Origin: Clostridiales bacterium
GTDB taxonomy: Bacteria > Bacillota > Clostridia > Saccharofermentanales > Saccharofermentanaceae
Direction: 5' to 3'
Assembly (NCBI GenBank): GCA_017519205.1
Contig: JAFWSW010000059.1
Location: 1-32,667 of the forward strand
Length of the DNA stretch: 32,667 bases
Positions 22,761-32,667 of the stretch are shown piece by piece. Position numbers and translations under genes: made by a program. How positions within the stretch are numbered: position 1 is the stretch's first letter; each line of letters opens with the position of its first letter. Under the pieces are notes generated by a model. The model was not told the origin of the DNA. It did not search any database and saw only the letters and a program-made list of their open reading frames with translations.

Positions 22761-23804
22761 TTATACTCTGAGCGCCCTCTTTTTCTGTCTGATCACGATA
22801 CTCTGGATCAGAAGGAAGATGCACAGCATCGCTGCGATCGTGATACCTGTCCACCAGGCATCTCCCAGACCTGCCGATGCAACCATGTTCTGGATCGTGC
22901 ACAGTGAGAGAACACCGAATAGCGTTCCGACGATATTTCCTACGCCACCCGTCAGCAGTGTACCGCCGATGATGGAAGATGCGATCGCATTCATTTCCAT
23001 GCCTGTCGCGTGAGCAGCAGAACCGGATCCGACATTAAGGAAATATACATATCCGGCAATTCCTGCCAGCAGTCCGCAGATCACGTGGGAGAGGAACTTC
23101 GTCCTTCGCACATTGATACCGAGCATAAGTGCGCTCTGCTTGTTACCGCCGACGGCATAGAAACTTCTTCCGAGTTTGGTATAACGTAGAACTAAGAATA
23201 ATACTACCACAAGAACCAGTGCGACTACTACACCTATTTCTATCTTCGCAGGTTGATAGATGTTATGTTTATTGTAAGAACCCGCTCCGGGAATTACGAT
23301 ACGTGTATCTTTCAGTTTTCTGAAAGCTTCATTTTCTACATTGAACGGTTTTGTATGTACGATCGTCGTCATGCCGCGGGCGAAGAACATACCTGCCAGA
23401 GTGACTATAAACGGCTGAATATCGAAGTAAGCAACCAGGAAACCCTGTACGATACCGAACGCCAGACCGATACCGACGGCGATCAGCATGGATACCCAGA
23501 TATTGGCACCCGGACAGTAGTCGAGATATACCGCACAGGACATCGTGACCAGAGCGACCACACCGCCGACTGAGATATCGATTCCACCGGAGATCATAAC
23601 GATGCTCAATCCGAGAGCTGTAATGATCAAAGCCGCATTGGAACTCAGGATGTTAAAGAGCGTCTGCGGTTTCCTGAAACCACCGCCCTGGAAGATGACT
23701 GCGCTTGCATACATCAGGATAAAGATGGTAACCGTGATCGAGAAAAGAAGATTGGTATCGCTGACCTTACTGAAAAGTCCGCCTTTCATTTTTGACTTAT
23801 CCAT
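22761..23804 (-). CDS. yjfF: CUT2 sugar ABC transporter permease, YjfF-like
   Basis: 347 aa, strongly hydrophobic with about nine or ten membrane helices. It forms half of the membrane channel for monosaccharide import. It has the BPD_transp_2 signature (VMISGGIDISVGGVVALV) and YjfF-type blocks: PFIVTLAGMFFARGMTTIV, YAVGGNKQSALMLGINVRR, IASSIIGGTLLTGGVGNIVG, TLFGVLSLCTIQNMV and DAWWTGITIAAML. Its ATG overlaps the stop of permease 1 by one base (TAATG), which suggests equal production of the two subunits. Adjacent SBP2, permease 1 and the ATPase complete the transporter. Confidence 0.9.
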   Translation of the reverse strand: MDKSKMKGGLFSKVSDTNLLFSITVTIFILMYASAVIFQGGGFRKPQTLFNILSSNAALIITALGLSIVMISGGIDISVGGVVALVTMSCAVYLDYCPGANIWVSMLIAVGIGLAFGIVQGFLVAYFDIQPFIVTLAGMFFARGMTTIVHTKPFNVENEAFRKLKDTRIVIPGAGSYNKHNIYQPAKIEIGVVVALVLVVVLFLVLRYTKLGRSFYAVGGNKQSALMLGINVRRTKFLSHVICGLLAGIAGYVYFLNVGSGSAAHATGMEMNAIASSIIGGTLLTGGVGNIVGTLFGVLSLCTIQNMVASAGLGDAWWTGITIAAMLCIFLLIQSIVIRQKKRALRV

Positions 23805-24940
23805 TAGTTGTCCTCCTCCACTTCTTCGTTTTCACCGGAGATCACTTCGGCCGCAGAATCACCTACAGCAACAAGCTGAGCGGTTTTTTTCTTTGCTTTC
23901 ATCTTCTTAAAGAAGTCTCCGACATACTCTCTCACCTTCGGGGCGGAGAAGAATACCAGCAGGATAACTACGACAGCCTTATATGCAGCAAGTGCATCCG
24001 AACTGATGTGGAACTTATAAAGTGTGGTGGTCAGAGCCTGGATAACATATGCACCCAGAACCGAGGCCCACATGTTGAACTTACCGCCGGAGAGTGCATT
24101 GCCGCCGAGTGCGACCGCCAGGATGGCATCCATCTCAATATCCTTGGCAATAACGTTATAGTTGATCGTCGCGATACGGGATACTTTGATGAGCGCGGCT
24201 ACTGCCACACAAAGGCCCAGGATAACAAATGCCAGAAACTTAACAAAGGTCGGGTTGATACCGTTTAAGCGGGCCGACTTCTCGTTGATACCTACTGCCT
24301 GTGTGTAAAGACCGAGATTGGTAAACTTCAGCACTAGCGCGATCACTAAGACACATAAGAGCATGATAAAAACTGTAGTCGGGATCGGGATACCCGGGAT
24401 GAATCCGCCGAAATACTTGAACTTCGGATCCGGGACGATCGGAAGGCGGTTGAAGTTGATCCAGGCCGCGATCGGTCGTCCTGCGGTAAATAGAATGAGC
24501 GTAGCGATCATTGGCTGGATTTTAAAGATCGATACAAGTGCACCGTTAAATGCACCGCAGAGCATACCGACAAGACAAGCCACGAGGAATGCTACGATGA
24601 TCGGAGCCTGGATGGCGTCCGGTCTCGGGTTGGTGCCGCAGAGGACGCGCAGCATCGCCGAGCCGGCAATAGCAATCGTTGCGCCGACCGAGATATCCTG
24701 ACCGCCGGATGCCGCCGTTACGAGCGTCATGCCTATAGCCAGGATCGCCAATTCGGATCCGTAGTCAAGTATGGTAATAAGGGAGCCGGATAATACCGGA
24801 TTACCATCATTATTAGTGCGCAGGGTTACCTTAAAGAACCCCGGATCTACGATCAGGTTGATCACTGCCAGAAGCAGGAGCGCCATGATCGGTATGAACA
24901 GCTGATTGCTGGTAATTTTCTTGATTAATGACTTATTCAT
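23804..24940 (-). CDS. ytfT: CUT2 sugar ABC transporter permease, YtfT-like
   Basis: 378 aa, about nine or ten membrane helices. It pairs with the YjfF-like permease. Seen: LAILAIGMTLVTAASGGQDISVG (the usual GGxDxSVG signature, here with GGQDISVG), FKIQPMIATLILFTAGRPIA, AVGINEKSARLNGINP, IEMDAILAVALGGNALSGG and FNMWASVLGAYVIQAL. The last 40 residues are a charged cytoplasmic tail (KKMKAKKKTAQL ... ENEEVEEDN) longer than I recall for E. coli YtfT. The start lies 4 bases after the ATPase stop, and its ribosome site is inside the ATPase gene. Confidence 0.9.
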   Translation of the reverse strand: MNKSLIKKITSNQLFIPIMALLLLAVINLIVDPGFFKVTLRTNNDGNPVLSGSLITILDYGSELAILAIGMTLVTAASGGQDISVGATIAIAGSAMLRVLCGTNPRPDAIQAPIIVAFLVACLVGMLCGAFNGALVSIFKIQPMIATLILFTAGRPIAAWINFNRLPIVPDPKFKYFGGFIPGIPIPTTVFIMLLCVLVIALVLKFTNLGLYTQAVGINEKSARLNGINPTFVKFLAFVILGLCVAVAALIKVSRIATINYNVIAKDIEMDAILAVALGGNALSGGKFNMWASVLGAYVIQALTTTLYKFHISSDALAAYKAVVVILLVFFSAPKVREYVGDFFKKMKAKKKTAQLVAVGDSAAEVISGENEEVEEDN

Positions 24941-24944
24941 CCTT

Positions 24945-26450
24945 TTACTCTCCTCCTGCGATGGTGCTCATGATCATACTCTGTGTAAGATCATCGCCCG
25001 ATAATTCTCCAACGACTTTCCGGTCACGCATGACGACCAGTCGGGAGCACGTTCTGAGCATCTCATCTGTTTCAGAGGAAATGAAGGTAATACTCATTCC
25101 CTCGGAAGCAAGTTCCAGGACCAGTTTCTGGATATCGATCTTGGTACCTACATCGATTCCTCGTGTCGGTTCATCCAGGATCAGATATTCCGGATGCATC
25201 AGCAGCCATCTGGCTAAAATAACTTTCTGCTGGTTTCCGCCGGAAAGTGATTTTACAGGGGTATCGGCAGATGCTGTTTTAATATTGAGTTTCTTTATGT
25301 ATTCATCGGCAAAAGCATACGCCTGTGCTTTTGTGAACGGCTTAAAGAAACCTTTCATTACCTGTAGTGCGAGAATGATATTCTCACGAACGGACAGATC
25401 TCCGACGATGCCGTCGATCTTACGGTCTTCAGGAAGATACGCTATACCGTTCTTCATTGCCTGTTTCGGGCCTTTGATCTTTACGGGTTTCCCGTGCATT
25501 TTGACTTTTCCGCCAAGAACACGGTCCGCTCCGAATATCGCACGGACACATTCACTTCGTCCGGATCCGAGAAGACCTGTGAATCCGTTCACCTCACCTT
25601 TTCTGATGTGGAAATCGAAGGGCTTGATTCCCGCATTACTGACGAGCTTACTTGCTTCGAAGACTTCCTCATCGGCATCTTCTCCGCTATAGGATTCTGT
25701 CTCTCCCTTGATATCGGAAAGATCATCCATCTCTTTTCCAAGCATCTTCGCAACGAGCTTTACTCTCGGAAGATCCTTGATCTCATATTCCCCTACAAGC
25801 TGACCGTCGCGGAGTACGGTGATCTTATCACACACTTCGTAGACCTGGTCCAGAAAATGCGTTACAAAGATGATACCGACTCCGAGCTCCTTCAGATCTC
25901 TCATTAATCCAAACAGTTTTTCTACCTCTTGTTCATCCAGAGAGGAGGTCGGTTCATCCAAGATCAAAACCTTACATTCCATATCCACTGCTCGGGCTAT
26001 AGCGACCATCTGTTGTACTGCGATCGAGCAGCTGGCCAGCTGCTGAGTGGCCCTTGCCGGAATATCCATCCGTTTCAGGATCCGATCTGCAGACTCATTC
26101 ATTTTTTTCCAATTGGTGATGGCGCCATTTCCACGGCCGATATACATGTTCTCCGCAACGGTCAGGTTGGGGCACAAGGTAATTTCCTGATAGACAGTAC
26201 TGATGCCTAATCTTTGAGCATCCTGAGGGGAGTGGATCTGTACTTCTTTTCCGTCGAGGCGGATCACGCCGGCATCTTTTCCGTACACTCCGGTCAGGAC
26301 TTTGATCAGTGTAGATTTTCCGGCACCGTTTTCTCCCATCAACGCGTGTATCTCTCCACTGTTCAAAGAGAAGTCTACCTTCTGAAGGGCCTTTACGCCC
26401 GGAAAGTATTTCTCTATTCCTCGCATCTCAAGCAATCTAGTATTTTCCAC
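24945..26450 (-). CDS. ytfR: CUT2 sugar ABC transporter ATPase with two nucleotide-binding domains, YtfR-like
   Basis: 501 aa, typical of RbsA/YtfR/MglA-type proteins. It hydrolyses ATP to drive sugar import. Domain 1: Walker A MGENGAGKST (38-47) and Walker B VLILDEPTSSLD. Its signature is degenerate (the LASCSIAVQQ region in place of LSGGQ), as often seen in this class. Domain 2: a non-canonical P-loop TGLLGSGRSECVRAIFG, an intact signature SLSGGNQQKVILARWL, and YLILDEPTRGIDVG. The start is GTG (26450), 7-8 bases after AGAGG. It is separated from SBP1 by 95 bases with a hairpin. Substrate class is inferred from its permease and SBP partners. Confidence 0.93.
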   Translation of the reverse strand: MENTRLLEMRGIEKYFPGVKALQKVDFSLNSGEIHALMGENGAGKSTLIKVLTGVYGKDAGVIRLDGKEVQIHSPQDAQRLGISTVYQEITLCPNLTVAENMYIGRGNGAITNWKKMNESADRILKRMDIPARATQQLASCSIAVQQMVAIARAVDMECKVLILDEPTSSLDEQEVEKLFGLMRDLKELGVGIIFVTHFLDQVYEVCDKITVLRDGQLVGEYEIKDLPRVKLVAKMLGKEMDDLSDIKGETESYSGEDADEEVFEASKLVSNAGIKPFDFHIRKGEVNGFTGLLGSGRSECVRAIFGADRVLGGKVKMHGKPVKIKGPKQAMKNGIAYLPEDRKIDGIVGDLSVRENIILALQVMKGFFKPFTKAQAYAFADEYIKKLNIKTASADTPVKSLSGGNQQKVILARWLLMHPEYLILDEPTRGIDVGTKIDIQKLVLELASEGMSITFISSETDEMLRTCSRLVVMRDRKVVGELSGDDLTQSMIMSTIAGGE

Positions 26451-26480
26451 AGGTCATACCTCTTTCGCTTTTTTAAAAGA

Positions 26481-26522
26481 TGCGGTGCGGTTCTTTCTTT
26501 ATAGGATCGAAGCCGCACCGCA
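26481..26522 (-). terminator. Intercistronic hairpin between SBP1 and the ATPase gene
   Basis: TGCGGTGCGG..TTC pairs with GAA..GCCGCACCGCA with a single bulged base and a 15-base loop: a long GC-rich stem just after the SBP1 stop. On the minus strand ATCTTTTAAAAAAG follows, a poor T run. It fits a partial terminator or an mRNA-stabilising stem that keeps SBP1 mRNA in excess over the transporter mRNA. Confidence 0.65.
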
Positions 26523-26545
26523 CCCTTAGGTAAATGGTTATATAA

Positions 26546-27562
26546 TTAGATTCCGTACTTATCTACGTCTTCCTGCTTAATGGTAGCAGCGTCGAATCCT
26601 TTTTCTTCCATGATGATCGTCTTCTCAGGTGTCTTTCCTGCTTCGAGATCCTTGATGATTGCGTCGATGTAGCTTGCCTGGAACGGATTGCACTGTCCGT
26701 CATAGTTCCAGTTCTGCTTCAGGAGTTCTTCGAGAGCCCACTTGTTGCAGTCAAAGCCCATAACAACTACGTCTTTACCAACACCATGAGAGATACCTGC
26801 TGCGTCGAGAGCTGCTACAGCACCCTTAGCCATATCATCGTTCTCAGCATAGATTACGTTGAACTTCTCGCCGGAGTCGATAACGGACTGAACGATCTGC
26901 TGTGCTTTTTCTGCGTTCCACTCAGCTGTCTGCTGCTTAACGATCTTCCAGTTTCCTTCTGCGGCAACCTTCTTATCAAGAGCGCCGGATCTGCCCTGCT
27001 GAGCTGCGGAACCCATAACGCCCTGGATGTGGATTACATTGTACTCAGGAAGATTCTGGCTTGCGAGCCAATCAACTGCTGTCTGGCCTTCCTTGTTCAT
27101 ATCGGAAACGATAGAAGCTTCATAAAGGCTCGGGTCTGCATCGATCGTTCTGTCGAAAAGGATAACCTTTACGCCGGCAGCCTTTGCATCCTGAAGAACG
27201 GAATCCCAGCCTGCTGTATCAGCAGCGGAGAGCAGGAGATAGTCAACTTCATCCTGGATGAATGTCTTAGCGTACTGGATCTGCTCATCATTCTTCAAGC
27301 TGTAGTTGAAAGAAGCGTCATAGCCGTTCTCTTTGGTGAACATAGCCTTCAGGTCAGCGTCATTTGCTGTACGGTAACCGGACTCGTTCGGGTCGTTGTT
27401 GATGATACCGACTTTGATCAGACCATCTTTCTTTTCCGGTGTCTGAGACTCAGCTTTGGTCTCGTCACTCTTGGTGGTTTCCTTCTTGTCTTCTTTCTTG
27501 CTGCAGCCAACAACGCTGAAAGCAAAAACAGAAGCCATAATAAGTGCAACTACTTTTTTCAT
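26546..27562 (-). CDS. Sugar-binding lipoprotein, first gene of the CUT2 operon (SBP1)
   Basis: 338 aa. Signal and lipobox MKKVVALIMASVFAFSVVGC (Cys20), a short Lys/Glu linker, then a periplasmic-binding-protein type 1 domain from about residue 48 (KVGIINNDPNESGYRTAND). It is distantly similar to YtfQ in block order (AKTFIQDEVDYLLLSAADTAGWD, AAGVKVILFDRTIDADPSLY, IQGVMGSAAQQGRSGA). It is very close to SBP3 at the far end of the locus. GGAGG precedes the ATG by 6 bases. Its place at the head of the operon, and the hairpin after it, suggest the main, abundant receptor for the transporter. Ligand unknown; a pentose or furanose is likely. Confidence 0.9.
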   Translation of the reverse strand: MKKVVALIMASVFAFSVVGCSKKEDKKETTKSDETKAESQTPEKKDGLIKVGIINNDPNESGYRTANDADLKAMFTKENGYDASFNYSLKNDEQIQYAKTFIQDEVDYLLLSAADTAGWDSVLQDAKAAGVKVILFDRTIDADPSLYEASIVSDMNKEGQTAVDWLASQNLPEYNVIHIQGVMGSAAQQGRSGALDKKVAAEGNWKIVKQQTAEWNAEKAQQIVQSVIDSGEKFNVIYAENDDMAKGAVAALDAAGISHGVGKDVVVMGFDCNKWALEELLKQNWNYDGQCNPFQASYIDAIIKDLEAGKTPEKTIIMEEKGFDAATIKQEDVDKYGI

Positions 27563-27592
27563 TTTTTACCTCCTCGGTTTTTTCTACCTCAT

Positions 27593-27625
27593 CGGGGTCT
27601 TCCCCCGTCATCTGGTTTCATTTTA
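27593..27625 (-). promoter_or_regulatory. Candidate promoter -10 and leader hairpin of the SBP1 operon
   Basis: A -10-like TAAAAT lies at 27620-27625 on the minus strand with no good -35, as expected for an activator-dependent promoter. A small hairpin, CGGGG-loop-CCCCG (27593-27607), lies in the leader. The remaining 27563-27750 region is T/A-rich and shows no gene. The response regulator at 29.1-30.7 kb is the likely activator. Confidence 0.35.
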
Positions 27626-27750
27626 GGATTGCATTGAAAAAAGACCATTGATAAAAAATGGAAACAAGTTGTGTTTTTTTCTCACATAAAAAACGCAGTT
27701 GGTTTTTTTACGAAATCGGTGTAGATTTTTCTTTTCCGTTGAAAAACAGT

Positions 27751-27790
27751 AAAGAAAAAAAGAGAAAACCGCAGTAGTTATGCGGTTTTC
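27751..27790 (-). terminator. Rho-independent terminator overlapping the histidine kinase stop codon
   Basis: Perfect 10-bp stem GAAAACCGCA / TGCGGTTTTC (27764-27773 and 27781-27790) with a 7-base loop, then TCTTTTTTTCTTT on the minus strand. The stop codon of the kinase gene lies inside the loop region, so termination is immediate. It insulates the regulator pair from the SBP1 operon. Confidence 0.85.
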
Positions 27791-29088
27791 TTCGGAAGTC
27801 TGATTACGACGCGTGTACCTTTTTCCGGAATACTCTCGAGGTGTACACCATACCCTTCACCGAAGTTCAATCGTATTCTTTCATTCACATTATAAAGACC
27901 ATATACGACATTCTTTTCGGGGGTTCCGTTGCGGATCGCTTTTCGCACCTGTCGGAGACGATCCTCTTCCATACCTTTTCCGTTATCTTCAACGATGATC
28001 GAGAAGTAGTCCTTCTTTTCCTCGGCAGAGATGGTGATCTTTCCTCCGCCACGTTTATTCTTGATGCCGTGGTAAAGCGCGTTTTCCACCACCGGCTGGA
28101 TCGTCAGTTTCGGGATGCGGTATTCATAAAACTCCTCCGGAACATTGATCTCATAAGTGAGGATATCCTGGTAACGGATGTGCTGGATCTCAAGATAGGA
28201 TCTTACATGCTGGAGCTCTTCGCGGATCAATACGTTCTCTTTACCTTTATTCAGGGACAGCCGGAAAAAGTCGGAAAGGTTTCCTACCATGCTGACGACC
28301 TGTTTCTGGTTTCCCGCTTCCGCCGACCAGACGATCGCATCCAGCGTGTTATAAAGGAAGTGCGGATTGATCTGTGACTGCAGAAGATCGAACTCTGCCT
28401 TCCGCAGGAGCTTCTGCTCTTCCTTAACCTGTTTCTCGATCGGTCTTGTGATCCACTTCGGTCCGAAGTAGGAGACTACGACCATGCTCACCAGACCAAA
28501 TGCCATAAGACCCACGGAGATCTCGACGATATTGACGAACAGGGCATTGTTCTCTGCCTGCGTCGTCTGGATCTGCCGGTTCTCGTAGTAGATATATTCG
28601 TTGATCGTATCTTTCAGAAGCGAGGTAACGATCTGGACGTCGTTTTCCCAGATCAGCATGTTATCCTCGTACTTGTTTTCATAGCCGAGGTTCTTCGTGA
28701 TCTGGGTAACATATGTCACTAAGTTGTTGAGATATTTTTCCGCATAGAGAAGTCTCTGCTGGTTATCCTCGGTCGTAGTATATCCTTTCAGTTCCGTAAC
28801 GACCTGACGGGCTTTTTTCAATTCATCATTAAGGCTTGATTCCTCCGGGCTGACATAACCTACGATAAGAAGATAGGTCTCATTATCGAAGTCTTCCTTA
28901 AACTGAAGGCTGAATTCACTTGCAGCGACCACGGAGCTGATCATCTCGTTATTTCTCTCATTGATATGCCACATGTTATAGAATGCATACGCAATGAACA
29001 CCAGACTCGGCAGCAGAAGGACGATATATGAGATTCGGATCTGTGTCGCCAGATGCGATCTTTGTTTCTGCCTTTTCTCCTTCGTCAT
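27778..29088 (-). CDS. Sensor histidine kinase, YesM/LytS-like
   Basis: 436 aa. Membrane helix 1 (about 20-38), an extracytoplasmic helical domain of about 150 residues (39-184), helix 2 (185-207), then a short linker and a His_kinase (PF06580-type) domain. The phospho-accepting His243 lies in LQSQINPHFLYNTLDAI; the ATPase part has IQPVVENALYHGIKNK (N box) and VEDNGKGM (G1 box), ending YGLYNVNERIRLNFGEGYG. It should phosphorylate the AraC-type response regulator just upstream; the ATG overlaps that gene's stop by four bases (ATGA). Genes of this class next to CUT2 sugar transporters typically sense the transported sugar, sometimes through a binding protein. Confidence 0.93.
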   Translation of the reverse strand: MTKEKRQKQRSHLATQIRISYIVLLLPSLVFIAYAFYNMWHINERNNEMISSVVAASEFSLQFKEDFDNETYLLIVGYVSPEESSLNDELKKARQVVTELKGYTTTEDNQQRLLYAEKYLNNLVTYVTQITKNLGYENKYEDNMLIWENDVQIVTSLLKDTINEYIYYENRQIQTTQAENNALFVNIVEISVGLMAFGLVSMVVVSYFGPKWITRPIEKQVKEEQKLLRKAEFDLLQSQINPHFLYNTLDAIVWSAEAGNQKQVVSMVGNLSDFFRLSLNKGKENVLIREELQHVRSYLEIQHIRYQDILTYEINVPEEFYEYRIPKLTIQPVVENALYHGIKNKRGGGKITISAEEKKDYFSIIVEDNGKGMEEDRLRQVRKAIRNGTPEKNVVYGLYNVNERIRLNFGEGYGVHLESIPEKGTRVVIRLPKKTA

Positions 29089-30710
29089 GCTTCTTCTGCT
29101 CCGTGACCTTTATTTCTGTACTGTGTCGGAGTCACGCCCTGTGTCTTCTTAAACAGATAGGAAAAATAGTGCGGATCTTTATATCCGACCAGGATGCCGA
29201 TCTCGTTACTCTTCTTCGAGGTGCGGCTCAGAAGTTCTTTTGCCATATTCATACGGTAATCGGTAAGATACTTGATAAACGGCTGGCCGGTCTCCTGCTT
29301 GAAAATGGAGCTTAAGTGGTTCGGCGAGAAGTTCACCTGGGCCGCCAGAGTATTGAGGGAAAGCTCCTCATCGGAATAATGCTCATTGATATATGCGATC
29401 GCATCCTTGATGACATCGTGATAACGTCCCAGTGTGTGATCCTCGCGAAGGGACAGTGCCAGTGCCAGGATCTCGGAGAGATAATCATGTGTCTTCTCCT
29501 CATCAGAAAGCACTTCATTTCCCGGAAACGGGAACTTCTCTTCCATCTCTTCCCTGGTAAGTCCCAGTTCATTCTCGGCAAAATCCGCGATGCAGAAATA
29601 CACGTCCATAGCAATATACTGACGGAGCATCTTGGAGCGTAGTGCATGATCTCCGATATTGTTGAGATATTCCTCGAGGAAGAACGTGATCTCCGATTCT
29701 TCACCTGCGCGGAGGAATCTCTTCATGAGACGGCGGTCGATGTGCTTCGGGTCGATCTCCGAAAGGATATCGACATTATTCTCAGGACGAAGACCTTCCT
29801 TCGATCCTACAAGGAATCCATTCTCCGATGTCAGATACAGATGTGCGAATGCACGGCTTGCCCAATCAAAGGATGTGTGGATCTCCGATACTCTTCCGAC
29901 GGGCTGACCGACAGCTCCGAAGTAACGGATATGCTTATACGCGGAGAAGAGTTCTTTCATCGCGCCGATCGCACGATCCGTCTTTTTCTTAATATCGTTA
30001 TCGTCATCGCCCTTAAAAAGCAGCGCGGTACCCTCGACCTTAAAGTCGAAGAACAGCGCACTGTTTTCTTCCGCGATATTTCGGACGGCTTCCTCGACAC
30101 GGACTACACTGTTCGAATACTCGCCGATGTCATGCTTATCCGACCAGATCTTAAGGAGCATAATATTATAGCGGAGCGCGGAAATGTCGATGGAGAGTGC
30201 TTTTGCCTCGGAAATCAGTTCCGATGTACTCTTCCCGCCCTGGACAAGTGTATTGAAGAATTCACGCTTATCCAGCTCGGTGCGCTCCCGCATTTCTTCT
30301 TCATATCTTTGCGCGGCTTCACGCTCGGATTTTTTCTCACGGATCTTTTCGGAGATCGCATCGACCTCTTTGATCAGGTTCTCTCCGTTTACCGGCTTCA
30401 GCAGATAGCAGGATACACCGATCTTGATGGCTTCTCTTGCGAACTGGAAATCCTCGTAGCCGGTAAGAATAATGATCTCGATCCACGGGAACTCGGACTT
30501 GATCATACGGCTCAGTGTAATACCGTCCATGAACGGCATCTTGATATCGGTAATGACAATATCCGGTTTCAGTTTCTGGATCATGGAGTAGGCGACTTCA
30601 CCATCGCCGGCTTCGCCACAGAAATCATAACCGTGTCCTTTCCAGTCGATGATATTTTTAATTCCTTCACGGACGACGTATTCGTCCTCTACCAGAAAAA
30701 CCTTCAGCAT
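29085..30710 (-). CDS. Response regulator with AraC-type DNA-binding domain, YesN-like
   Basis: 541 aa from the ATG at 30710. That start follows GAGG by 5 bases; the GTG two codons earlier would overlap the ribosome site. Receiver domain at 1-120: MLKVFLVEDEYVVREG, phospho-acceptor Asp55 in IVITDIKMPFMDG, and the Lys of YLLKPV. A long middle region of about 300 residues (coiled-coil start EKIREKKSEREAAQRYEEEM) is of the YesN type. The C-terminal AraC domain has two helix-turn-helix units (LSLNTLAAQVNFSPNHLSSIF; IGILVGYKDPHYFSYLFKK). It is probably the activator of the SBP1-transporter operon and pairs with the overlapping kinase gene. Confidence 0.93.
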   Translation of the reverse strand: MLKVFLVEDEYVVREGIKNIIDWKGHGYDFCGEAGDGEVAYSMIQKLKPDIVITDIKMPFMDGITLSRMIKSEFPWIEIIILTGYEDFQFAREAIKIGVSCYLLKPVNGENLIKEVDAISEKIREKKSEREAAQRYEEEMRERTELDKREFFNTLVQGGKSTSELISEAKALSIDISALRYNIMLLKIWSDKHDIGEYSNSVVRVEEAVRNIAEENSALFFDFKVEGTALLFKGDDDNDIKKKTDRAIGAMKELFSAYKHIRYFGAVGQPVGRVSEIHTSFDWASRAFAHLYLTSENGFLVGSKEGLRPENNVDILSEIDPKHIDRRLMKRFLRAGEESEITFFLEEYLNNIGDHALRSKMLRQYIAMDVYFCIADFAENELGLTREEMEEKFPFPGNEVLSDEEKTHDYLSEILALALSLREDHTLGRYHDVIKDAIAYINEHYSDEELSLNTLAAQVNFSPNHLSSIFKQETGQPFIKYLTDYRMNMAKELLSRTSKKSNEIGILVGYKDPHYFSYLFKKTQGVTPTQYRNKGHGAEEA

Positions 30711-30747
30711 AGTCACCTCATCATGAGAAGCATCTCATCTGACTATT

Positions 30748-30777: not shown

Positions 30778-30811
30778 CAACGACGCTTTCCCTCCTCTCG
30801 AAAAGCACCCG

Positions 30812-30836
30812 TACAAAAACGCAGGCAGCGCGTTTT
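30812..30836 (-). terminator. Terminator downstream of the FtsX-like permease
   Basis: Minus strand: AAAACGC, a 7-base loop, GCGTTTTTG: a perfect 7-bp stem with a T run at 30816-30836. It ends the transcript coming from the FtsX-like gene after the two palindromic repeats and just before the regulator promoter. Confidence 0.65.
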
Positions 30837-30842
30837 CCCTTT

Positions 30843-30896
30843 TTCCAAGTAATGGTCAATGTAAATCCCCTCTACATTGACCACTACATGAACTTT
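30843..30896. repeat. Palindromic repeat unit 1 (54 bp)
   Basis: Arms GTAATGGTCAATGTA (30849-30863) and TACATTGACCACTAC (30873-30887) pair over 15 bp with one mismatch and a 9-base centre. The flanks TTCCAA and ATGAACTTT are conserved with unit 2. It lies in the gap between the FtsX-like gene and the response regulator gene. No protein is encoded. Confidence 0.9.
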
Positions 30897-30904
30897 CTGC
30901 TTTA

Positions 30905-30958
30905 TTCCAAGTAATGGTCAATGTAAACCACCTCTACATTGACCATTACATGAACTTT
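30905..30958. repeat. Palindromic repeat unit 2 (54 bp)
   Basis: Arms GTAATGGTCAATGTA (30911-30925) and TACATTGACCATTAC (30935-30949) pair perfectly over 15 bp, with a 9-base centre AACCACCTC. It is a direct repeat of unit 1 with a period of 62 bases; the two units differ only in the centre and in one arm base. As RNA it would form a long stem with no proper T run on the minus strand. Confidence 0.92.
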
Positions 30959-30976
30959 TTTCCGCTGCCTTCATTA

Positions 30977-32667
30977 TTACTCAATGACCAGTTCTCTGAT
31001 CTCCACCTTCTTTACTTTCCTCGAAGCAAGGTAGGCAAAGAGGAAGAAGCATCCCAGAAGGAGAATGACCGGGATCAGGATCGTCTCCGTCCGATACTTC
31101 GAAATGAAGTTAGAGACACCGACGCTTCTGAGGACCGTGCTCAGTGTCCGGTTTGAAAAAAGAACACTCAGAACGATACCTAAAGCAGATCCGATCACGG
31201 CGATGATCAGGAAGCGAAGCGCAAACAGCAGGCGGAGTTTTCCCGAGGTAAAGCCGATGGCTTTATAGATACCGAGGTCTCTTCTTTCCTGTGCAAAGGA
31301 CTTGCTGCAGATCATGGAGACAACGACCAGTACGAAGATGACCGATAATGCATAGATCGTATAACGCATGGCATCGACTGCGGTCGAGATCGACTTGATA
31401 TCCGAGACTTCGGAAAAATCGGAATCAGCCGTGATCTTAAACTCATCTCCGAGTTTTTCTCTCAATGCTTCTGCGATCCGATCGGCTTCATCCGGCTCCG
31501 AAAGGCTCGCACCGTACCAGACATACCCGTTCACACCGATCTTTTTCGCTCCGGCATCGGACATGGCCATTGTCATACCGGTATCGTTCATGCTGCAGAA
31601 AATACCCGAGACGATAAACTCCTCCTTGTATTCTCTTCTCGCAACTTCGAGCTTATCGCCGGTCTTCAGTCCCAGATCTTCGGCCAGGATGTCCGTGATA
31701 ACGAGTTCATTGTCATAGACCGGAGCTCTTCCGGAGACCATACTGATCGTTTCCGGATCATAATAGAACTGACAGTAGATCGTATTTCCATTTACCGTGA
31801 CATACTCATTTCTGAAAAAGATCGACTTATTGACACACGTTTCGTCTTTCACGACAGATTCAATCTTTTCCATCTCCTCTTCGGTAAAGTTTCTATCCTG
31901 CGGTCTTACCTCGACTTCGCAAAGGATCGAACCCAGAGCCTCGAGTGCGGACTTCGACTTCATGCAGCTGGCCATAAGATTTACGGTAAGCATGAAGAAC
32001 ATCAGAAGTGCCGTGATCAGGATCGCCACGAGATAGCGGCGCTTATTCGAACTGAACTGACGGTAGGAAAGGCTCATGGACAGGTTCTTTCCGGAAACCG
32101 GTGCCGTCAGGAAACTGTCGAAATAGACATCCCTGCTCTCGCCGGTCAGTGCTTTTACCGGAGAAACCTTCGCCACTTTTCTTGTCGCAAGAAGGATGAC
32201 CAGGACCGACAGTACCAGGATCACGAGAAGCACCAGAAGGCTCGTTCCGAGATCGACATCTTTCTTCGCGATGATTGCCGTGATCGGCTGGAAGATCCCG
32301 CCGAAAAGAGAGATCATGGGGATCGAGAGAATGGTTCCGATAATGGCACCGACGATCTCTGCAAGAAGATACTGCAGCATATAGAGCACGCGTATTCTTC
32401 CCTTTGTGAATCCTTCGGCTTTCAGGATGCCGATCTCCGCATAGCTCATCTCGATCGTCACGGTGATATTGTGCGCCATGATGATCAGCACGACGCCCGC
32501 AAGGACCATCGCAAATCCGATCATGATCGAGCAGATGATGTCCGAGAAAAGATTGGTATAGTGCTTCATCTGGGTCTCTGTCGCCGAAGCGTATGCATAG
32601 TCCTGGATACCGGTATCACGGTTGATCGTTCTTGCAAACTCACCGTCACTTAATTCGCAGTCAGCAC
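30977..32667 (-). CDS. FtsX/MacB-type ABC transporter permease (N-terminus outside window)
   Basis: 563 codons are visible, and the frame stays open to the window edge, so the first ATG at 32569 is not the true start. Seven membrane helices are visible: about three in the first FtsX core (IICSIMIGFAMVLAGVVLIIMA; LLAEIVGAIIGTILSIPMI; LLVLLVILVLSVLVILLA), one before a large extracytoplasmic domain of about 200 residues (YLVAILITALLMFFMLTV), and three in a second core (YALSVIFVLVVVSMI; LRFLIIAVIGSALGIVL; ILIPVILLLGCFFLFAYL). EIGILKAEGFTKGRIR and DLGIYKAIGFTSGKLR are the paired loops that contact the ATPase. It is likely the permease of an exporter or lipoprotein/antibiotic-type transporter; the ATPase gene is not in view. 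Confidence 0.9.
   Translation of the reverse strand, partial: ADCELSDGEFARTINRDTGIQDYAYASATETQMKHYTNLFSDIICSIMIGFAMVLAGVVLIIMAHNITVTIEMSYAEIGILKAEGFTKGRIRVLYMLQYLLAEIVGAIIGTILSIPMISLFGGIFQPITAIIAKKDVDLGTSLLVLLVILVLSVLVILLATRKVAKVSPVKALTGESRDVYFDSFLTAPVSGKNLSMSLSYRQFSSNKRRYLVAILITALLMFFMLTVNLMASCMKSKSALEALGSILCEVEVRPQDRNFTEEEMEKIESVVKDETCVNKSIFFRNEYVTVNGNTIYCQFYYDPETISMVSGRAPVYDNELVITDILAEDLGLKTGDKLEVARREYKEEFIVSGIFCSMNDTGMTMAMSDAGAKKIGVNGYVWYGASLSEPDEADRIAEALREKLGDEFKITADSDFSEVSDIKSISTAVDAMRYTIYALSVIFVLVVVSMICSKSFAQERRDLGIYKAIGFTSGKLRLLFALRFLIIAVIGSALGIVLSVLFSNRTLSTVLRSVGVSNFISKYRTETILIPVILLLGCFFLFAYLASRKVKKVEIRELVIE

Follow-up and report, generated by a model that had tools for sequence, protein, structure and literature searches.

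Dispersed tandem hairpins in a Clostridiales genus adjoin and track a family of putative PD-(D/E)XK-like nucleases

The two palindromic units studied here belong to a family of tandem hairpin repeats whose arrays adjoin genes for a nuclease-like protein, match the lineage of that protein, and also occur as solo copies away from the gene. They were found in a window of 32,667 nt, i.e., positions 1 to 32,667 of contig JAFWSW010000059.1 from a Clostridiales bacterium. We consider it fairly probable that protein and repeats form a pair of a nuclease and its cognate dispersing hairpins, which works like RAYT and REPINs but with an unrelated enzyme, and that the window's array is a solo, non-autonomous copy. 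The gene-array linkage by itself is clearly better assured than this full reading, in which the putative enzyme would recognise, cut and spread its repeats. The relevant features of the window are the following.

30904-30958, minus strand: hairpin unit 1 in the sense orientation, closest to the FtsX-like gene, with a perfect core palindrome (repeat analysis and covariance-model boundaries)
30842-30896, minus strand: hairpin unit 2, with a single arm change (repeat analysis and covariance-model boundaries)
30897-30903, minus strand: inter-unit linker of 7 nt (from the unit boundaries; compared with the linkers of other arrays)
30977-32569, minus strand: FtsX-like permease gene (PF02687), lying within a longer open frame and, in the sense direction, preceding the array by 18 bp
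29085-30716, minus strand: AraC-type response regulator gene (PF00072, PF12833), downstream of the array
30816-30836, strand unassigned: hairpin resembling a terminator, located beyond the array (plus-strand result of the terminator scan)

The array (30842-30958) reads sense on the minus strand. The initial annotation had described tandem palindromes with a 62-bp period, and we indeed find two direct copies, 62 bp apart from start to start and 89% identical. Both are inverted repeats in which a 9-nt centre separates two arms of 18 nt (complementarity 94% and 89%). The 15-bp core given there, GTAATGGTCAATGTA-N9-TACATTGACCATTAC with its 9-nt centre, is perfect at 30911-30949 and carries one change at 30849-30887. 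That this change results in a G-T wobble holds for the minus strand but not for the plus strand, where the position is an A-C mismatch. When folded, the minus strand of 30800-30976 reaches -71.6 kcal/mol (z -9.4); 200 dinucleotide-shuffled sequences average -37.8 kcal/mol (sd 3.6), and none of them is as good. A search of Rfam with the window units gave no family above chance, i.e., a single hit with E 3.2 and 16.4 bits against a cut-off of 75.5 bits, and a sigma-70 promoter scan of the window region returned nothing useful. A CRISPR array was considered and rejected: the linkers are 7 nt long and alike between units, not variable spacers.

Close homologues of the FtsX-like gene occur in most genomes of the genus. 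The adjacency of this gene to the regulator gene is shared by nine relatives (judged from the downstream sequence), none of which carries the array, such that it is present in the window's genome only. We infer that it was gained in this lineage as a seeded copy; comparison with the relatives revealed neither a target-site duplication nor a clean empty site at the window locus. Beyond the units, a terminator had been annotated at 30812-30836. The terminator scan does report a stem at 30816-30836 on the plus strand, but the minus strand is not called: there, the T-run of the hairpin is part of the stem, which makes it a weak terminator at best.

A BLAST search with the window unit finds more arrays in the draft genome that the window comes from (240 contigs, completeness 90%), where the family comprises seven units at three places. 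Among the 59 genomes searched as relatives (own genome counted), 8 show matches, every one of them from the window's genus. With the covariance model R1, built from 36 units of genomes that were then searched with it, matches are found in 14 of the 23 genus genomes (150 first-look candidates scored per genome). The copies thus reside at many unrelated loci, and of the options listed in the initial annotation that of an interspersed palindromic element proves to be right. Arrays hold 1-6 units across the genus and copy numbers are in the tens per genome, where arrays may be collapsed or cut since most genomes are draft metagenome assemblies. Units begin with AAAGTC or similar, and all units of an array share a single orientation. 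Their mean identity is 87% within an array, 77% between arrays of one genome, and 70% between genomes. The closest arrays repeat at exactly 62 bp, the diverged arrays of two genomes (G012, G022) at 61 bp or wider. Orthologous array sites differ in their number of units (3, 6 and 4 at one site; 2, 3 and 2 at another).

The core pattern occurs in 10/23 genomes of the genus and in 2/165 other genomes of the order. One of the latter two, a genome of the sister genus (G151, L170:1400-1650), has two similarly built hairpins about 74 bp apart with a GTCTATG motif and no enzyme gene in the fetched stretch around them; in the other, the match looks like chance. Named records with the core pattern are mostly ruminant Clostridia assemblies, one of them labelled Mageeibacillus sp. 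Pattern matches outside the genus in Veronia (L078, L084), a Prevotellaceae record (L086) and L083 were rejected as chance-like. A Lachnospiraceae locus (L088) has a lone hairpin between convergent genes, without the enzyme, and was left unassigned.

At the home locus, the convergent neighbour of one array encodes an orphan protein of 253 aa, the gene of which lies on another contig than the window. That is, the family's array adjoins this gene of about 253 codons and overlaps its stop codon: in 4/5 close homologues, the beginning of the first repeat provides the stop codon, either TAA or TAG, with TGGTC after it. Palindromic repeats of differing sequence flank most homologues down to about 40% identity, with the array downstream of the gene in the window's enzyme clade and upstream in other clades.

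To quantify this linkage, we called arrays with TRF (period 40-110, score >=100, at most 700 bp from the gene). Arrays are found near 27/55 enzyme genes (17/26 in the genus, 10/29 in the class), the 55 loci being best matches instead of a random draw, with several genus loci representing the same orthologous slot; at the other 28 loci TRF calls none. Near control genes, which come from two gene families only, arrays are seen in 3/45 cases, one being the window's own (p 2.4e-6 against the enzyme genes). Near flanks (0-600 bp) carry arrays in 25/103 cases (10/56 class, 15/47 genus), compared to 2/99 far flanks (600-1200 bp), one of them belonging to a locus with a near array as well. Within the genus, the mean number of exact 9-bp inverted repeats in 600 bp is 2.35 past the 3' end of the enzyme gene but 0.05 further out. 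We also related array similarity to enzyme similarity. Since a comparison of whole flanks also picks up conserved neighbouring genes, it was set aside and only the arrays were compared. For 27 arrays, both similarities are correlated (Mantel r 0.53, 0/5000 permutations), with the signal being carried by close pairs. Two of the listed loci, L203 and L242, are the same place, and L242 was left out of the array-similarity and flank comparisons.

Arrays of unrelated sequence also share a short motif recurring at 12-bp spacing. Direct 6-mer repeats peak at a lag of 12 bp: the 26 genus loci show 134 such pairs compared to 10 when shuffled (17 loci with at least two), and the 29 class loci 70 compared to 3, limited to 10 loci. 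In the class loci, lag 17 is high too (79 pairs, three loci). The window's own units carry the 12-bp motif pair in degenerate form, below the threshold of the 6-of-7 test.

The 253-aa protein has matches at E<=1e-30 in 18/23 genus genomes, and a profile search of the class finds its family in 34/391 genomes from 18/223 genera, with at least 6 scored copies in several genomes. Neither Pfam nor NCBIfam holds a fitting entry above cut-off, and neither yields a toxin-family or Y1 match. Among the PADLOC profiles, PDC-S68 matches the C-terminal part, with 1.3e-16 for the genus protein and values as low as 2.8e-28 among class homologues, and HEAT_CxxC_PD-DEXK matches the homologue L255 at 3.3e-8 as well as L249 and L257; it is not listed for the genus protein itself. 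In an alignment of 25 proteins (A2), FRSKSE and EH are invariant, as are E143 and E188, while D173 is present in more than 90%, one of the 25 proteins lacking the conserved D. In these 25 sequences, no lysine follows E188 two residues on, i.e., EH takes the place of the usual E-x-K. From the profile matches and the motif, the C-terminal domain is predicted to be PD-(D/E)XK-nuclease-like. PDC-S68 and PDC-S69 have such a nuclease-like C-terminal domain of about 110 residues in common with the proteins studied here; the PDC-S68 models in contrast span about 1,200 residues, whereas our proteins have about 250 with an N-terminal part of their own. A structure model from four close homologues reached a mean pLDDT of 46, too poor to judge the fold; its fold search gave no significant match, and we ignored the Foldseek list given the quality of the model. 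Searching PDB sequences with A2 returned one chance hit (E 0.21). Among viral contigs, 38 stretches fit the pattern but none is a relative, and a search of plasmids with one protein gave no match. In one enzyme copy (L210:1489-2262), Y replaces the conserved D of the YxDFAV motif, and this copy may be inactive.

Most copies of the window's repeat type are solo. That is, the enzyme is present at 6 of the 45 fetched loci and absent from the fetched DNA of the other 39. A second repeat type, which belongs to the enzyme of locus L219, sits in home arrays in two genomes, G005 and G015. Its solo copies occupy four further places in G005 and a single place each in G015 and G007; the DNA fetched around these solo copies contains no enzyme. 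At the level of genomes, R1 matches are found in 8/8 genomes with an enzyme of at least 50% identity compared to 6/15 genomes without. The main exception is G014 with 21 units but no close enzyme (best homologue 40%), the assembly of which is 80% complete.

The home slot represented by loci L201-L210 links enzyme and array further. Here, the upstream neighbour genes share 97-98% and the downstream ones 89-91% identity, while the enzymes share only 43-53% and the arrays are different. For instance, G007 and G011 have a neighbour of 98.1% but an enzyme of 53.2% identity; for G001 and G015 the values are 91.1% and 43.0%. This pattern looks like a cassette replacement of enzyme plus array, though a fast joint divergence of both would fit equally.

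Next, we consider the stem itself. Pairing is maintained via double changes (AA, CA, AC, TA and CC, each with the matching partner). Within 32 distinct rows, 24 cells are changed on both sides compared to 15.4 when shuffled (3/500 as high) and 5-8 in slid versions, while the number of pairs with double-sided changes shows no excess (6 vs 5.7 shuffled). Further tests used 76 units, for which L083, L088, L132, L134, L136, L137, L138, L140, L142 and L143 (foreign, with indels, or weak) as well as L145 were left out. Two variable stem bases differ among the loci of one genome. Within genomes, these two bases match in 46/72 distinct units, where 5000 shuffles give a mean of 37.5 and a maximum of 44, bearing in mind that the units of one array are related, such that shuffle tests overstate independence. 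On the sense strand, G-U and A-C combinations are equally frequent (62 vs 63, fixed pair 25/33 excluded), i.e., no wobble asymmetry is seen, and an RNA of one strand is therefore not indicated. Template-switch correction of palindromes can also yield compensatory changes. The earlier hint at selection for the stem hence gains some support from the compensatory changes, but these could also have arisen by such correction.

The mechanism that we favour runs as follows. Each unit contains a short motif whose two copies in the left arm are spaced by 12 bp and which recurs inverted in the right arm; this allows the unit to form a hairpin or an extruded cruciform. The home array flanks the enzyme gene and in several genomes supplies its stop codon. 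The putative nuclease would recognise its own repeat and cut at or near it; repair or strand transfer would then expand arrays and seed copies where these are tolerated, mostly at 3' ends and between convergent genes. The window's array would be one such seeding. A more general version is about evenly balanced between true and false: multi-copy small PD-(D/E)XK-like nucleases of Clostridia would recognise and disseminate their own tandem hairpins, a partnership with an origin separate from that of HUH-based REPtrons, and enzyme and array would be swapped as a cassette at fixed chromosomal slots.

Two alternatives concern the position of the arrays among genes, which we assessed for 40 scored array gaps (four contig-edge loci unscored; L083, L088 and L145 left out). 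These gaps are convergent in 21, codirectional in 17 and divergent in 2 cases, compared to 9 convergent and 11 divergent among 58 further gaps (>=100 bp) of the same loci (Fisher p 1.3e-4 and 0.07, respectively). Genes were called as longest ORFs throughout. The initial annotation had suggested operators for the response regulator, and palindromic sites do occupy the gap upstream of its gene. That the units are operators for this regulator or another local factor is nevertheless very improbable, as the copies adjoin many unrelated genes, chiefly at 3' ends, the nine relatives sharing the regulator lack the array, and the variable stem bases are not constant across the loci of one genome; the window palindromes are probably not operators. 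The preference for convergent gaps rather fits bidirectional terminators or stems at mRNA 3' ends, maintained by selection between convergent genes and multiplied through ordinary recombination, with the nuclease gene as a mere neighbour. Some units also have an A-run ahead of the stem and a T-run behind it, and a single hairpin unit lies between convergent genes in four genomes (L227-L233, the locus of L105), while the relative G010 has a hairpin resembling a terminator at this place. Nevertheless, this explanation seems rather unlikely. It does not account for the concentration of arrays beside one gene family in many genera or for array sequences that track the enzyme, a separate terminator adjoins many arrays, and G-U does not exceed A-C. 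The same equality speaks against the paired RNA stems at an mRNA 3' end proposed earlier, for which the usual position would fit. It is plausible that single copies serve as terminators as a secondary benefit.

Other alternatives start from the enzyme. In type III toxin-antitoxin systems (ToxIN, CptIN, TenpIN), tandem RNA repeats restrain a nuclease and the array precedes the toxin gene. A toxin-antitoxin-like or defence pair, in which the array (as RNA or DNA) restrains a harmful nuclease and solo arrays are leftovers or anti-addiction copies, would account for tandem repeats adjoining a nuclease-like gene, for the matched lineages, for the joint difference of enzyme and array at one slot and for the resemblance to the PADLOC defence candidates PDC-S68/S69. 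We judge it unlikely: in the window's clade the array is downstream and overlaps the gene end, a match to Pfam toxin families is absent, dispersed solo arrays are numerous, and the equal G-U and A-C counts do not indicate RNA. Mobilisation as REP/REPIN elements by a RAYT transposase (Y1, HUH) is in turn suggested by the repeats, since REPINs, according to PMC3116915, are palindromic, intergenic, clustered beside their cognate gene, and dispersed. But the linked protein is not a Y1 transposase, and Y1_Tnp (PF01797) occurs in 4/23 genus genomes and is absent from the array carriers G000, G001, G005, G007, G012 and G022. We thus rejected this candidate as highly improbable, unless several incomplete assemblies happen to lack the gene simultaneously.

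The nuclease-hairpin pair that we favour still resembles REPtrons (RAYT/TnpAREP plus REP/REPIN) as outlined in PMC8266576 and PMC3116915: palindromes are intergenic, cluster at the gene of their cognate enzyme and have dispersed copies, several enzyme/repeat types occur per genome, and enzyme and repeat change together. It differs in its enzyme (PD-(D/E)XK-like instead of a Y1 HUH transposase), in its repeats (direct tandem hairpins with 12-bp-spaced motifs instead of inverted REP pairs with a GTAG tag) and in its copy number (tens instead of hundreds per genome). By inspection, none of the listed units has a constant GTAG, the REPIN tetranucleotide, ahead of its stem. Because the Y1 enzyme that defines REPtrons is absent from most array carriers, we do not file the pair there. 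BIMEs, which PMC8266576 describes as REPs combined with inverted REPs, are likewise tandem palindromes within intergenic gaps; in contrast to them, the units found here all have one orientation and, in the window's type, a fixed period of 62 bp.

If the enzyme does spread its repeats, dispersed bacterial palindromes arose at least twice, with unrelated enzymes, and a second, independent model would be available for the movement of REP-like elements, a question called unresolved in PMC8266576. An enzyme family that has no fitting Pfam or NCBIfam entry and at least 6 scored copies in some genomes would gain a function. The pairing is testable, since each enzyme predicts its own substrate while the 12-bp motif spacing is shared. 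Were it a defence or decoy system instead, matched nuclease-array cassettes at one slot would be equally unexpected. In the open-access literature (preprints outside the scope) we found no description of such a nuclease/hairpin pair; a prior description is possible.

Finally, two observations concern the surroundings of the window's array. The region 23804-30716 is an ordinary sugar-uptake cluster that encodes an ABC ATPase, a permease, a binding protein, a histidine kinase and the AraC-type response regulator. Furthermore, GGCAGCG (30824-30830) and CGCTGCC (30963-30969) flank the entire array, the former lying within the loop region of the terminator-like hairpin. This 7-base match is possibly due to chance; alternatively, the array may have been inserted into an older terminator, or the bracketing 7-mers may pair across the array.
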